DNA of 34,678 bases from a virus: the IMG/VR virus record IMGVR_UViG_3300009161_000132, positions 1 through 34,678 of that record; one strand, given 5' to 3'. Of this stretch, positions 2,631 to 34,678 are shown piece after piece (the stretch's first letter is position 1; every line of letters begins with the position of its first letter). The notes under the pieces are model-generated. The model was not told where the DNA came from. It worked only from the letters and a program-made list of their open reading frames with translations, and made no database searches. Position numbers and translations under genes: made by a program.

Positions 2631-3326
2631 ATGTCTTACCTAAATCACAATCTCCCAACAATCACTTGTTATATTCGTAACGAATTTCTCTATAATCATA
2701 AAAAAGGACATGGAGAGGTAACTTTATGCGACGTACACTCCGTAGCATCCTTAGAGAAGCACGTACCCCTCTTTGAGGCATTTCTAGAGAACGGAGTCAA
2801 CTGGACAAGAAGACCAATTCATGCATTTTGTTGGAAACCAGATGCACAAGTTCCAAAATTAGAGGAATGTATGTGGTGGGATTGCTTTTCTCCTTATGTT
2901 GATGTTCAAGTACGTTCAAGACTTGCTAACTTACGTGCCGAACTTATCAACTATAAGGCGAAAAAGAATGAAGGAACTTATTTGTTTACTCTTGATTGGT
3001 CCTGGGAATCAAAATCTACTTTAAATACAAACTTTAGTGAGACACCAGAACATAAATGTGCTCATTTCTTTAAAATGGATAATGGAAACTTCTATGCATA
3101 TCCAAATAACAAGATTTTATGGTACGATGATGCTTGGATACGCAATAGAATTGCCAAAAATCCTGGGTATGAAATCGATATGACTGAATATTCTGTTGAA
3201 AATATTCGTAAAATTGAAACATCTGACGATTTTATGTATGAAATCAAAGAAATTCGGGATAGCAACCCCGTAAAAAGTTCTGATTTACCAAATCAGGAGC
3301 AAACTCATGACCAAAAAGGTGGATAA
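2631..3326 (+). CDS. Conserved cyanophage hypothetical protein (231 aa)
   Basis: The protein starts MSYLNHNLPTITCYIRNEFL. It is rich in aromatic residues and has recognisable blocks: GHGEVTLCDVHSVASLE (about 27-43), VNWTRRPIHAFCWKPDA (57-73), WWDCFSPYVDVQVRSRLA (82-99) and NKILWYDDAWI near 159-169. I recall this family from many T4-like cyanophages, close to gene 25, without a function. It looks like a compact globular alpha/beta protein. No signal peptide, membrane segment or catalytic motif is evident. The last 20 nt overlap the next gene. Position before the baseplate genes suggests a morphogenesis role, but nothing in the sequence proves it. Confidence 0.85.
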   Translation: MSYLNHNLPTITCYIRNEFLYNHKKGHGEVTLCDVHSVASLEKHVPLFEAFLENGVNWTRRPIHAFCWKPDAQVPKLEECMWWDCFSPYVDVQVRSRLANLRAELINYKAKKNEGTYLFTLDWSWESKSTLNTNFSETPEHKCAHFFKMDNGNFYAYPNNKILWYDDAWIRNRIAKNPGYEIDMTEYSVENIRKIETSDDFMYEIKEIRDSNPVKSSDLPNQEQTHDQKGG

Positions 3327-3560: not shown

Positions 3561-3568
3561 AATAAATA
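3561..3568 (+). promoter_or_regulatory. T4-type late promoter for gene 25
   Basis: AATAAATA matches the T4 late octamer TATAAATA at 7 of 8 positions and lies 20 nt before the ATG of gene 25. In T4, late promoters consist of this octamer alone, read by host polymerase with gp33 and gp55. It marks the likely start of the baseplate operon. Confidence 0.6.
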
Positions 3569-28147: not shown

Positions 28148-28155
28148 TATAAATA
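28148..28155 (+). promoter_or_regulatory. T4-type late promoter for the neck/packaging genes
   Basis: TATAAATA matches the T4 late consensus at all 8 positions and lies 22 nt before the gene 13 ATG, in the 54-nt gap after the 58-aa gene. It is the strongest promoter candidate in the window and probably drives genes 13 to 16. Confidence 0.75.
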
Positions 28156-30486: not shown

Positions 30487-31494
30487 ATGTTTGAGTATTT
30501 TTACCACCAAATCTTAAGAAAAACTGTTATTGCATTTGGTTCTCTCTTTAATGATATTACAATTAAACACACAAATTCTGCAAATGAAATTGTAAGTGTT
30601 ATAAAAGTTCCTCTTGCATATGGACCAACGCAAAAGTTTTTGGCAAGATTAGAGCAGTCTCCAGATTTAAGTAATCCAATTCAAATTACATTACCAAGAA
30701 TGTCTTTTGAGTTTACTGGATTGACATATGATACTGCTAGAAAATTAACTACGACACAAACATTTTTATCAAAATCCGTTACTGACGGAACTGAAACTAA
30801 AAAAACTTATATGCCAGTTCCATATAATTTACAATTTGAACTGTCTATAATGTCAAAGTTGAATGATGATGCTCTTCAAATCATCGAACAAATTCTACCA
30901 TATTTTCAACCATCATATAATCTTACAGTTGAACTTGTTGATGAAATTAATGAAAAAAGAGACATTCCAATTATTCTTGAAAATGTTACGATGCAAGATG
31001 AGTATGAGGGAAATTTTGATAAAAGAAGAGTCTTAATTTATACTTTGAGATTTACTGCAAAGTTATATCTTTTTGGACCAACTTCAACAGTAACAAAAGA
31101 TATTGTCAAGAAAGTATCCATCAATTACATTACTGGAGATACTACAAATACTCCCAAGAGGGAAGTTGTATATTCTGCAGAACCGAGAGCTATCAAAAAT
31201 TATACTGGTACTGTGATTACAAATATTGCAAATGATATTACAACCGAAGATGTTTTGATTACTGTAAATAATGCATCTTCTATTTCTGTAAATACTTATC
31301 TTGATATTGAGGGTGAAGAAGTATATGTAAAATTGAAATCTGGTAATGTTCTTACTGTGGAAAGAGGAAGAGATGATACAACAATTACATCTCATCTTGC
31401 TGGTGCCCAGGTCAAATCAATCACAAGTGCCGATGATTTATTAATAGAAGAGGGGGATGATTTTGGATTTAGTGGATCTACAACGTCACCATAA
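30487..31494 (+). CDS. gp15: Tail completion / sheath stabiliser gp15
   Basis: gp15 caps the tail tube and sheath and joins the tail to the neck. The 335 aa start MFEYFYHQILRKTVIAFGSL, then FNDITIKH, KVPLAYGPTQKFLARLEQ and ITLPRMSFEFTGLTYD, all typical. MPVPYNLQFELSIMSKLNDD and QDEYEGNFDKRRVLIYTLRF follow. T4 gp15 is 272 aa; the extra C-terminal part (about 240-318) is a module with TEDVLITVNNASSIS, YLDIEGEEVYVK and LTVERGRDDTTIT, also found in the tail giants. The tail is acidic (EEGDDFGFSGS). Its stop overlaps the gene 16 ATG (TAATG), so the two are probably co-translated. Confidence 0.92.
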   Translation: MFEYFYHQILRKTVIAFGSLFNDITIKHTNSANEIVSVIKVPLAYGPTQKFLARLEQSPDLSNPIQITLPRMSFEFTGLTYDTARKLTTTQTFLSKSVTDGTETKKTYMPVPYNLQFELSIMSKLNDDALQIIEQILPYFQPSYNLTVELVDEINEKRDIPIILENVTMQDEYEGNFDKRRVLIYTLRFTAKLYLFGPTSTVTKDIVKKVSINYITGDTTNTPKREVVYSAEPRAIKNYTGTVITNIANDITTEDVLITVNNASSISVNTYLDIEGEEVYVKLKSGNVLTVERGRDDTTITSHLAGAQVKSITSADDLLIEEGDDFGFSGSTTSP

Positions 31495-31943
31495 TGACAG
31501 AGAAGAATGAATCAAAAAAATTTGATAAATTAAATGAAACTTTTAATGTTTCGGGAGAGGTAGTGGAAACTGAAATTATAAAAGAAACTCACGAAAATAA
31601 AATTGGTGAGATTTCGAATTCAATTCAAGATATTAAAAAAGATTATGAATATACAAGAGGAAATTTATATTCTTTAATTGAGAAGGGTCAGGAAGCAATT
31701 AATGGAATTCTTCAGTTAGCTCAAGAAAGTGAAATGCCTCGTGCATATGAAGTTGCCGGACAATTAATTAAAAATGTGGCAGATGCAACCGATAAATTAA
31801 TGGACCTACAAAAGAAACTCAAAAATATTGAGGAAGACAAACAACCTCGTGGACCAACAAACGTCACAAATGCATTATTTGTGGGGTCAACAGCAGAATT
31901 GGCAAAACTTTTAAAAAAACAATCTACTGAAGAAAATGTTTAA
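31494..31943 (+). CDS. gp16: Small terminase subunit gp16
   Basis: gp16 recognises viral DNA and regulates the large terminase during head filling. Identification rests on position (directly after gene 15, before gene 17), length (149 aa; T4 164) and an extended helical core: ISNSIQDIKKDYEYTRGNLY, IEKGQEAINGILQLAQESE, RAYEVAGQLIKNVADATDKL, MDLQKKLKNIEED. The C-terminal RGPTNVTNALFVGSTAEL segment is what I recall from cyanophage gp16. The N-terminus (1-40) is charged and looks flexible. The ATG overlaps the gene 15 stop by one base. Unlike T4, another gene separates it from gene 17. Confidence 0.88.
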   Translation: MTEKNESKKFDKLNETFNVSGEVVETEIIKETHENKIGEISNSIQDIKKDYEYTRGNLYSLIEKGQEAINGILQLAQESEMPRAYEVAGQLIKNVADATDKLMDLQKKLKNIEEDKQPRGPTNVTNALFVGSTAELAKLLKKQSTEENV

Positions 31944-31962: not shown

Positions 31963-31970
31963 AATAAATA
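31963..31970 (+). promoter_or_regulatory. T4-type late promoter for the 628-aa gene
   Basis: AATAAATA matches TATAAATA at 7/8 and lies 23 nt before the ATG at 31994. An AAGGA ribosome-binding site lies between (31976-31980), rather far from the start. It would drive the 628-aa gene and gene 17 together. Confidence 0.5.
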
Positions 31971-31993: not shown

Positions 31994-33880
31994 ATGGACG
32001 CATATAAAAAGTTTACTCATAAAACTCCACATTTAAAGGGTAAACAACATCAATTAGATCCCAATATAGACCTAAAGCAATTGGTTCATCACGCAACAGT
32101 TCAGTATGTTGATCGGGATGCTGATGGTGATGTTGATGTTTATGACAATCCAAAGAAAAAAACACCAGATGAAAATCCAATTGGAGTTGATTTTGGCAAT
32201 CTTTCAAAAAAATTAATTGCAAAACAAAAGGGAGAAATTAAACATACTAAAAGAGGTATGGCATACGAAGAAGTGGAGGAAAAAAGGTATTGCCCTCTTT
32301 GTGATAAAAGAGAGACACGTTCAGAATGTTCTTATGGCGAAAAGGCATGGGATAAAGTTTCCGTGAAAGACCATGAGTATTCTATGGCTCGTTCTGAACT
32401 CTCTACAGTTATGAATGCTGTTAAGAGACTTCAGAAAAAAATGAGTAAGGGAGAAGGAAATGTTGAGGCATGGGTCCAATCAAAAATTACAAAGGCAGCA
32501 GATTATCTTGATTCTGCGGCAGATTATATTGATAGTGGTGAAATGGATGAAGCAGCAAATCCTGCTCAACAAGCAGCAATTGCAATTAATATGAAAAAGA
32601 AAGGTATAAAACCAAAATCAGAAGTTGATGAAGCATGTTGGGTTGGATATAAACAAGAAGGGTTAAAGAAAAAAGGAAAGAAAATGGTTCCAAATTGTGT
32701 TCCAGAAGAAACAGAAATTCAAGAGGCATCAAAGTCAGGAGATGCTTCTCTTCACGATTGGTTTGCAAAAAGCAAATCTTCTGATGGAAAACCTGGATGG
32801 GTCCAGTTAGGAGGAAAATATGCAGGAAAACCTTGTGCAAAACAACCAGGGCAAACTACTAAACCAAAATGTGGTAGTTCAAAAATGGCAGCAGAAATGT
32901 CTCCAGAAGAAGAAGAAAGAGCGGCAGAAAGAAAAAGAAGAGAAGATCCAAATCCAGATAGAAAAGGTAAGGCAATAAATGTTGCAACAGAAGAGTATGT
33001 AGAGGAAGATGCATGTAAAACAAAAGTTAAATCAAGGTATAAAGTCTGGCCTTCTGCATATGCATCAGGAGCACTTGTAAAATGTCGTAAAGTAGGTGCC
33101 GCAAACTGGGGAAATAGCAGTAAAAATGAAGAGATTGTTTATGAAGGTGATTATTGGCATCCAGATCCAGAAATAGATAGAAAACTTGGTGGTCCTGGAC
33201 CAAATCAACGTGCTCGTGAAGATCATCCTCAACCAAAATCAGATCCAAAGAAATTGCGTAAGGGTGAATCTTATATCGATTGGAATAAACGTCAAAGAGG
33301 TCTCAAGAATTCTTATGAACCAGATGGTGAATTGATTGATGAGTCAACTCGTTTACAAGCAGAAACAGGAAACATTCTTGCTGTAATTTTAAACTGGAGA
33401 GGAAAGACATATTCAATTAGAATGTTCTTTCCACAAATTGGAATGCCCAGCAGGAAAGATGTTACGACAGAGATACAAAAAATTTATCCAGGTTCTCAAG
33501 TTCTTCAATATAAAATTTCAACAATTGAACCAGGAATGCCACTGATTCAAGTTGTAAATTCAAAATCAAAAAACTATTTACTCAATTCTAAAACAATTGG
33601 TGAAGAAGTTGAGATTGAAGAAGATTGGCAGAAAGAAAATCGTAAAGACAAAACTGATGGGTTAAGTCAAAAAGCAGTGAATGCATATCGCAGGGAAAAT
33701 CCGGGTTCAAATCTTCAGACAGCAGTAACAGAAAAGAAACCAACTGGTAAAAGAGCATCACGTAGAAAAAACTTTTGTAGTCGTATGTCAGGAATGAAGT
33801 CAAAACTTACTTCTGCAAAAACTGCACGAGATCCAGATTCAAGAATAAATAAAGCACTTCGTCGTTGGAACTGCAACTAA
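31994..33880 (+). CDS. Lysine-rich mosaic protein between terminase genes (628 aa)
   Basis: No single function is recognisable; the protein is a chain of small cassettes joined by acidic linkers. In order: an N-terminal block with an acidic DRDADGDVDVYD stretch (39-51); CPLC...C cysteines (100, 103, 112); a helical cassette with RSELSTVMNAVKRLQKKMSK and VQSKITKAADYLDSAADYID (132-181); DEACWVGYKQEGL (212-224); DWFAKSKSSDGKPGWVQLGG with PGQTTKPKCGSSK (250-297); DACKTKVKSRYKVWPSAYAS (339-358); an alpha/beta domain (455-530, FFPQIGMPSRKDVTTEIQKI); and a basic tail with GKRASRRKNFCSRMSGMK (585-602) ending RRWNCN. I recall most of these cassettes from uncharacterised marine phage proteins. A packaged, DNA-binding or scaffold protein is one possibility. 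Gene 17 starts 4 nt later. Confidence 0.8.
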   Translation: MDAYKKFTHKTPHLKGKQHQLDPNIDLKQLVHHATVQYVDRDADGDVDVYDNPKKKTPDENPIGVDFGNLSKKLIAKQKGEIKHTKRGMAYEEVEEKRYCPLCDKRETRSECSYGEKAWDKVSVKDHEYSMARSELSTVMNAVKRLQKKMSKGEGNVEAWVQSKITKAADYLDSAADYIDSGEMDEAANPAQQAAIAINMKKKGIKPKSEVDEACWVGYKQEGLKKKGKKMVPNCVPEETEIQEASKSGDASLHDWFAKSKSSDGKPGWVQLGGKYAGKPCAKQPGQTTKPKCGSSKMAAEMSPEEEERAAERKRREDPNPDRKGKAINVATEEYVEEDACKTKVKSRYKVWPSAYASGALVKCRKVGAANWGNSSKNEEIVYEGDYWHPDPEIDRKLGGPGPNQRAREDHPQPKSDPKKLRKGESYIDWNKRQRGLKNSYEPDGELIDESTRLQAETGNILAVILNWRGKTYSIRMFFPQIGMPSRKDVTTEIQKIYPGSQVLQYKISTIEPGMPLIQVVNSKSKNYLLNSKTIGEEVEIEEDWQKENRKDKTDGLSQKAVNAYRRENPGSNLQTAVTEKKPTGKRASRRKNFCSRMSGMKSKLTSAKTARDPDSRINKALRRWNCN

Positions 33881-33883
33881 TAT

Positions 33884-34678
33884 ATGAGTGCTGACATTTA
33901 TCTTGGTAATCCTTTACTTAAAAAGGCAAATACACCAATTGAATTTACAGAAGATCAAATTCTTGAATTTATAAAGTGTAAGGAAGATCCTGTATTTTTT
34001 GCAAAAAATTATGTAAAGATTGTGACTTTGGATCACGGATTACAACCATTTAAGATGTATCCGTTTCAAGAAAAACTTGTTGAAAGATTTCATAAGAATA
34101 GATTTAATATTTGTAAGATGCCTCGGCAGACTGGTAAGAGTACCACTGTCGTATCATATCTTCTTCATTATGCAGTATTTAATGATAATGTAAACATAGG
34201 TATTCTTGCAAACAAGGCAGCAACGGCAAGAGAACTTTTAGATCGTCTTCAAACGGCATACGAAAATCTTCCAAAGTGGATGCAACAAGGAATTATTTCT
34301 TGGAACAAAGGTTCTCTTGAATTAGAGAACGGATCTAAAATTTTAGCAGCATCCACTTCGGCATCTGCTGTTCGTGGTATGTCTTTCAATATCTTGTTCT
34401 TGGACGAATTTGCGTTCGTCCCAAATCACATTGCAGATTCATTCTTTGCATCGGTATATCCAACAATTACTGCAGGTAAAAATACAAAGGTAATTATTGT
34501 ATCTACACCACACGGTATGAATCATTTCTACCGTATGTGGCACGATGCAGAGAAAGGAAAAAACGAATACATTTTTACGGATGTTCACTGGAGTGAAGTT
34601 CCTGGTAGAGATTCTGCCTGGAAGGCACAGACAATTGCTAACACTAGTGAACAGCAATTCAAAGTTGAATTTGAGTGT
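33884..34678 (+). CDS. gp17: Large terminase subunit gp17, 5' part (cut by window end)
   Basis: gp17 is the motor of T4-type DNA packaging: an N-terminal ATPase and a C-terminal nuclease. The 265 residues visible cover most of the ATPase domain. The Walker A motif is MPRQTGKST (79-87; T4 has SRQLGKTT). The Walker B motif is ILFLDEFAF (170-178), with catalytic E175. The coupling motif region is VSTPHGMNHFY (206-216). The N-terminal adenine-binding region includes KMYPFQEKLVERF (57-69). The nuclease domain lies beyond the window. There is no ribosome-binding site; the ATG lies 4 nt after the previous stop, so translation is probably coupled. Confidence 0.97.
   Translation, partial: MSADIYLGNPLLKKANTPIEFTEDQILEFIKCKEDPVFFAKNYVKIVTLDHGLQPFKMYPFQEKLVERFHKNRFNICKMPRQTGKSTTVVSYLLHYAVFNDNVNIGILANKAATARELLDRLQTAYENLPKWMQQGIISWNKGSLELENGSKILAASTSASAVRGMSFNILFLDEFAFVPNHIADSFFASVYPTITAGKNTKVIIVSTPHGMNHFYRMWHDAEKGKNEYIFTDVHWSEVPGRDSAWKAQTIANTSEQQFKVEFEC

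Follow-up and report, generated by a model that had tools for sequence, protein, structure and literature searches.

What kind of protein is encoded between the small and large terminase genes of a T4-like marine virus, and what would such a protein do there? The window, by which we mean the whole 34,678-nucleotide stretch of DNA that was analysed, comes from the genome of a T4-like virus and includes part of it only, with a late cluster of baseplate, neck and terminase genes; its source is a marine phage, apparently a cyanophage. A gene at 2631-3326 of the window matches phrog_3704, a PHROG family labelled 'ferredoxin'; it may encode a ferredoxin-dependent bilin reductase and suggests a cyanobacterial host. 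An earlier note on this DNA had singled out a Lys-rich, 628-aa reading frame between the terminase genes, and this description is borne out by the following features:

31494..31943, + strand: gp16, small terminase subunit, upstream neighbour (PF11053, E 1.4e-7; phrog_445, E 1.9e-53)
31963..31970, + strand: AATAAATA, resembling a late promoter, some 30 nt upstream of the ATG
31994..33880, + strand: cassette protein and candidate polyprotein, 628 aa, PHROG_727 / T4-GC119 family (phrog_727, E 3.9e-121)
33884..34678, + strand: gp17, large terminase subunit, running off the window (PF03237, E 8.1e-21)

Family and genomic site

The reading frame is continuous over its 628 codons for amino acids, 83 of which specify Lys (13%); the protein has a pI of 9.27 and a net charge of +25, most of it supplied by the C-terminal module J (+15 in residues 544-628). 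An assembly or frame artefact is ruled out by closely related intact copies in other metagenomes (L007-L014). Matches to phrog_727 and to PF19846 (E 1.1e-15) place the protein in the PHROG_727 / T4-GC119 / DUF6321 family, and 15 PHROGs families match different stretches of it with E < 0.01. A tblastn search located relatives in 504 phage records, the bulk of them from phages that infect Synechococcus and Prochlorococcus, with pelagiphages in addition; the PHROG_727 family records (about 500) are mostly Kyanoviridae. The protein has no relatives among PDB sequences and no match in NCBIfam, and the Pfam and PHROGs searches gave neither homology to TerS or TerL nor any metallopeptidase or other enzymatic domain.

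The S-SM2 family member (SSM2_109, T4-GC119) is likewise sited between gp16 and gp17. Among the 147 or more different proteins that contain four modules or more, 58 are flanked by both genes, and for nearly all of the remainder the contig ends too early or one neighbour is not resolved; one has the order gp15-X-gp16, and in P-SSM2 the gene (gp114) lies between gp15 and gp16. The gp16-gp17 interval is a described hot spot in which additional genes are common in cyanophages (PMC3037559), so that the insertion is present as the earlier note said but is not unusual. Its suggestion of an undescribed system does not stand, since the family is known (T4-GC119, PHROG_727, DUF6321), the S-P4 homolog is annotated as a structural protein and the site is a known hot spot. 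The location could also suggest a terminase accessory protein for DNA packaging, and the position is indeed fixed in nearly all relatives; we nevertheless regard this as very unlikely, because this recombination hot spot also houses plastocyanin, zwf, gnd and PTOX genes (PMC3037559), the P-SSM2 copy lies elsewhere, and the modules are expendable and shuffled.

A late promoter belonging to the gene itself, as the earlier note proposed, is plausible from AATAAATA, which is kept in the closest relatives but is missing from many homologs. As that promoter TATAAATA was ruled out, its sole copy in the window being at 28148 and not at this gene; the relaxed NATAAATA fits. The 7-mer ATAAATA occurs at window positions 3562, 17973, 28149 and 31964, 20-30 nt before four + strand ORFs, a placement expected of late promoters; yet it is rarer than chance across the whole window.

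Modules and their shuffling among relatives

We divided the protein into ten modules, A-J, with module starts chosen by eye:

31994..32233, + strand: module A (residues 1-80), with a DxDxDG loop; N-terminus MDAYKKF, no cut site
32273..32365, + strand: module B (94-124), Cys knuckle CPLC..RSEC; joint VEE96
32366..32551, + strand: module C (125-186), helical; C-terminal end MDE186
32552..32632, + strand: module D1 (187-213), AANPAQQAAIAINMKKK; C-terminal end VDE213
32633..32725, + strand: module D2 (214-244), CWVGYKQEGLKKKGKKMVPNC
32732..32998, + strand: modules E and F (247-335), DWFAKSKSSDGKPGW..., with homologs that are weakly DUF5872-like
32999..33115, + strand: module G (336-374), KVKSRYKVWPSAYASGALVKCRK; joint VEE338|D
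33116..33331, + strand: module H (375-446), DYWHPDPEIDRKLGGPGPNQRARED; joint VYE384|G
33332..33601, + strand: module I (447-536), predicted beta-beta-alpha-beta domain (pLDDT 71-87 across the folded part)
33602..33877, + strand: module J (537-628), DUF6321 (PF19846, E 1.1e-15), all-alpha; at the C-terminal end in nearly every architecture

When the relatives' proteins were searched with each module, about 345 loci among the matches listed yielded at least 150 non-redundant multi-module ORFs in more than 60 architectures. The order in the window protein is ABCDEFGHIJ; relatives have ECGHDIJ (L036-L040), EGDBCJ (L065), EFGDJ (P-RSM4) and EFDGDJ (L052), and module J almost always closes the chain. 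Individual modules are found as small genes and within other proteins as well; some adjoin or fuse with cytidylyltransferase and Zeta-toxin-like domains, one relative carries DUF192, and related cargo genes carry Zeta toxin or HicA domains. In such genes at L073:3093-5756 and L067:5440-6750, modules E/F accompany cytidylyltransferase and Zeta-toxin-like domains, or modules C/D accompany a HicA-like one. The earlier note had expected its cassettes to recur in other combinations, and each cassette that it named was found elsewhere in a different combination, so that none is unique to the window protein; the modules appear in shuffled orders at a nearly fixed genomic site. These comparisons of sequences strongly support the cassette nature of the protein and the re-use of its modules.

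A structure model of the whole chain was unusable (pLDDT 37.7). Modules I and J modelled together (111 sequences) reached pLDDT 76.6, with module I predicted as beta-beta-alpha-beta, module J as alpha-helical, and between them a predicted disordered linker (residues 523-542) that holds or abuts two strict L/I-x-E sites (IGE537 and IEE543). Foldseek gave no match to the PDB at E < 0.001 for modules I and J; module I weakly resembles T7 Gp2 (4lk0, TM by target 0.57, E 0.88), YkzG (4njc) and small viral proteins of Gp2 size. The likeness of the modelled domain to T7 Gp2, an RNA polymerase inhibitor, found no support when the sequences were compared and is only a lead.

Protease motifs, targeting leaders and virion proteomes

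In the precursors of cyanophage gp23, the motifs MIAE|Q, FLSE|A, ILTE|T and FLAE|A lie close to the position at which T4 gp23 is cut. T4 gp21 cleaves after L/I-x-E (PMC9026906), and the placement of these motifs suggests that the same rule likely holds in cyanophages. The window protein contains four L/I-x-E motifs, all of them at joints:

32717..32725, + strand: strict motif IQE244|A, joint D2/E; L/I-x-E in 13 of 14 aligned rows with P3 letters
33335..33343, + strand: strict motif IDE450|S, joint H/I; Glu in 16 of 16 rows, with I, L or V at P3
33596..33604, + strand: strict motif IGE537, invariant in 16 aligned relatives; lies in linker I/J, which is predicted to be disordered
33614..33622, + strand: strict motif IEE543|D, immediately upstream of module J

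Across the family, [ILVMF]xE is present at 584 of 778 distinct joints against 242.5 expected, V, M and F at P3 being unproven for gp21, and the strict [IL]xE at 281 of 778 against 121 expected; many joints share descent, and the counts are thus not independent events. The scan covered positions -12 to +2 relative to the module start, and the expectation was taken from the same residues after shuffling. Enrichment is weak at joints C, G and B. Control motifs, in which [ILVMF]x is followed by another P1 residue, were at or below expectation (observed/expected: D 109/118, K 63/152, Q 34/43, S 104/105). Because the module starts had been chosen by eye, we added a second test that avoids them, taking instead the points at which local alignments break off when proteins with different module orders are compared; here the hydrophobic-x-Glu motif is found in 35.3% versus 21.3% (largest of 200 nulls, 23.5%), and any Glu in 0.74 versus 0.61. 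The window protein has, then, putative prohead-protease sites of a kind enriched at joints, at which the prohead protease would cut.

The general excess of Glu in the linkers is also what one would see in an intact, uncut minor virion protein (of the head interior, neck or tail) made of modular peptide-binding segments, the Glu-rich linkers of which mimic sites; the finding of homologs in virions and the annotation of the S-P4 protein are also compatible with it. Shuffled residues do not reproduce the motif, however, the control motifs show no enrichment at joints, and stand-alone modules start with the T4 targeting leader, which has this cut site too, so that we consider an uncut protein unlikely, if the most serious of the alternatives.

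The leader, ten residues long and like that of T4 internal proteins, is found at the start of many such modules, as in MKSFKEFVAE|VAAWQRKEG (L081) and MKKFEQFVKE|ANKSGD (L052), and the leader closest to T4, MKTYQEFISE|AKKCWPGY (L196), compares with MKTYQEFIAE in T4 ipII/ipIII. Some polyproteins too begin with a T4-type capsid targeting sequence (CTS). Fossil leaders lie inside polyproteins directly before module J (MKTFGEFMAE|ATPAWQRKEG, KTFSQFMTE|ASAAWQRKEG), as would be expected if separate internal proteins became fused; such CTS-like copies within chains number just 13. The DNA pattern of the leader occurs in T4 in exactly three places, ipII, ipIII and 61.1; in S-CREM2 in five, all gene starts (SAM hydrolase gp6, gp13, kinase gp14, gp136 and cytidylyltransferase gp154); and in S-SCSM1 as two gene-start matches, NMNAT and gp030. 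T4 gp61.1 (NC_000866 18966-19130, - strand, L388), a hypothetical protein of 54 aa, starts with the capsid-targeting-like MKTFKEFIKE. A small conserved leader protein, phrog_1742 (MKSFKQFxSE|SVNISGDFNGN; L087:6921-7238 and many other loci), is found between the polyprotein and gp17; its gene is directly downstream of the polyprotein gene in many loci and is absent from the window.

On the window protein we looked for a canonical N-terminal leader ending in L/I-x-E and did not find one (MDAYKKFTHK). Tyr at 4 and Phe at 7, positions that matter for targeting in T4 IPIII (PMC9026906), are kept, but the residues on which cutting depends, 8 and 10, have changed, position 10 being Lys and not Glu; a canonical leader was rejected on these grounds, and for want of it we do not file the protein as a T4 internal protein. 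Among 135 relatives with at least three modules a leader is present in 16, about 88% being without one. T4 core proteins such as gp22 enter the prohead without a leader. A missing leader, together with the same protease motif, would suit a component of the prohead core or scaffold like T4 gp22, gp67 or gp68, cut by gp21 during maturation and with its pieces mostly expelled, as those of T4 gp22 mostly exit the head (PMC9026906). We think this improbable, since these phages already encode gp22, the modules are basic or Cys-containing and freely swapped, unlike scaffold, homologs are still detectable in finished virions, and the related proteins that bear leaders have enzymatic identities (NMNAT, SAM hydrolase, kinase).

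Two family members were detected in virions by mass spectrometry, S-SCSM1 gp029 (PMC9602691) and S-CREM2 gp137 (PMC10665884), the latter by 4 unique peptides only, with 4.1% coverage. These detections bear out the earlier note's proposal of a virion-associated protein, likely of the head, and from them entry of the polyprotein into the prohead may be supposed. The published S-CREM2 virion proteome contains the products of all five leader genes (5/5, p = 6.8e-4, the virion set being 52 of about 217 genes), including gp136, which adjoins gp137 between gp16 and gp17. For the two S-SCSM1 genes with the leader pattern, NMNAT is in the virion and gp030 is not reported there. The S-CREM2 authors raise contamination for enzymes in the virion fraction (PMC10665884), and a late host-takeover protein of the cytoplasm might have been detected in virions for this reason; contamination does not predict the 5/5 detection of leader-bearing genes, and we give this explanation very little credence. 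More broadly, S-CREM2 (OR473000; L356, L358) gp6, gp12, gp13, gp14, gp136 and gp154 are virion-detected with T4-type capsid targeting leaders, among them MKDFDSFLEE, RFASFMAE (at about residue 25), VKRFDAFLTE and MKNFSSFLTE; the enzymes that bear them are a SAM hydrolase, a Cas9-like nuclease, an APH-like kinase and a cytidylyltransferase, and the leaders argue for true packaging over contamination. Beside NMNAT in S-SCSM1, the Lys-rich virion proteins gp089 and gp280 (L091:36357-37328, 40061-41623) resemble further cargo polyproteins (KEGFSNWRNDLRE, KKEEVELDER joints).

A candidate head-cargo polyprotein among known systems

Sequence comparison establishes that the protein is built of modules, that relatives shuffle them, that the genomic site is fixed, that the motif is enriched at joints and that the leaders are homologous to those of T4; the protease sites at joints and the T4-type leaders point to a processed polyprotein of internal or ejection peptides and not to an intact DNA-binding or scaffold protein. 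We favour internal head cargo over an uncut virion protein, an expelled core component, a packaging accessory and contamination, and with modest confidence hold it probable that the window protein is a polyprotein of such cargo cut by a gp21-type prohead protease. The late-expressed polyprotein would enter the assembling prohead core, where the protease would cut after hydrophobic-x-Glu at the joints, most surely at IQE244, IDE450 and IGE537/IEE543; the small, mostly basic or Cys-containing pieces would remain in the head with the DNA and be ejected into the host as the T4 internal proteins are. Their likely job, proposed by analogy with Alt and with T4 IPI, a restriction inhibitor (PMC3012670), would be to blunt host defences or reprogram the cell, and shuffling at a fixed site would allow quick exchange of cargo between phages. 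The wider idea, that cyanophages use one polyprotein, cut within the capsid by the head-maturation protease, to supply the host cell with an interchangeable set of mini-proteins, and that the T4-type leader marks packaged NMNAT, SAM hydrolase and kinase, is more tentative, and we put it slightly short of an even chance.

Cyanophages are among the most abundant marine viruses, and many of their virion proteins have no assigned role: S-SM1 has 18 hypothetical structural proteins and S-CREM2 has 22. Should the joints prove to be true cut sites, a single rule would foretell both the pieces of this large, fast-changing family and the enzymes packaged in the head, the injected cargo of T4-like marine phages would become directly testable, and many candidate peptides for anti-defence or takeover could be catalogued.

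The DUF6321-ending cyanophage proteins of T4-GC119/PHROG_727 (S-SM2 SSM2_109, S-SCSM1 gp029, P-SSM2 gp114) share family, site and modules with the window protein; they are known as hypothetical or structural only, and the literature searched describes no processing or cargo role for them. The polyvalent proteins of phages and conjugative elements (Iyer et al. 2017, PMC5512222) are also multidomain, shuffled, encoded beside virion genes and proposed to be processed and delivered, and the window protein resembles them in joining several domains of a shuffled kind in a single chain, with virion genes as neighbours; they use built-in zincin-like metallopeptidases and enzymatic domains, whereas none was found in the window protein by Pfam and PHROGs and its putative sites point to the prohead protease. 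The head cargo of the giant phages phiKZ and SPN3US includes a mass of ejection proteins that a gp21 homolog trims (PMC9026906; PMC7411985); unlike the window protein, it is not known to take the form of short, exchangeable modules in one chain. With T4 IPI-IPIII and Alt the window protein has in common gp21-type sites and small, often basic products, which are predicted in its case; the ten-residue targeting leader of the T4 internal proteins is shared by its relatives, although the window protein has no canonical one, and where the T4 proteins are separate genes with one leader each, this family joins up to ten modules in a single chain.
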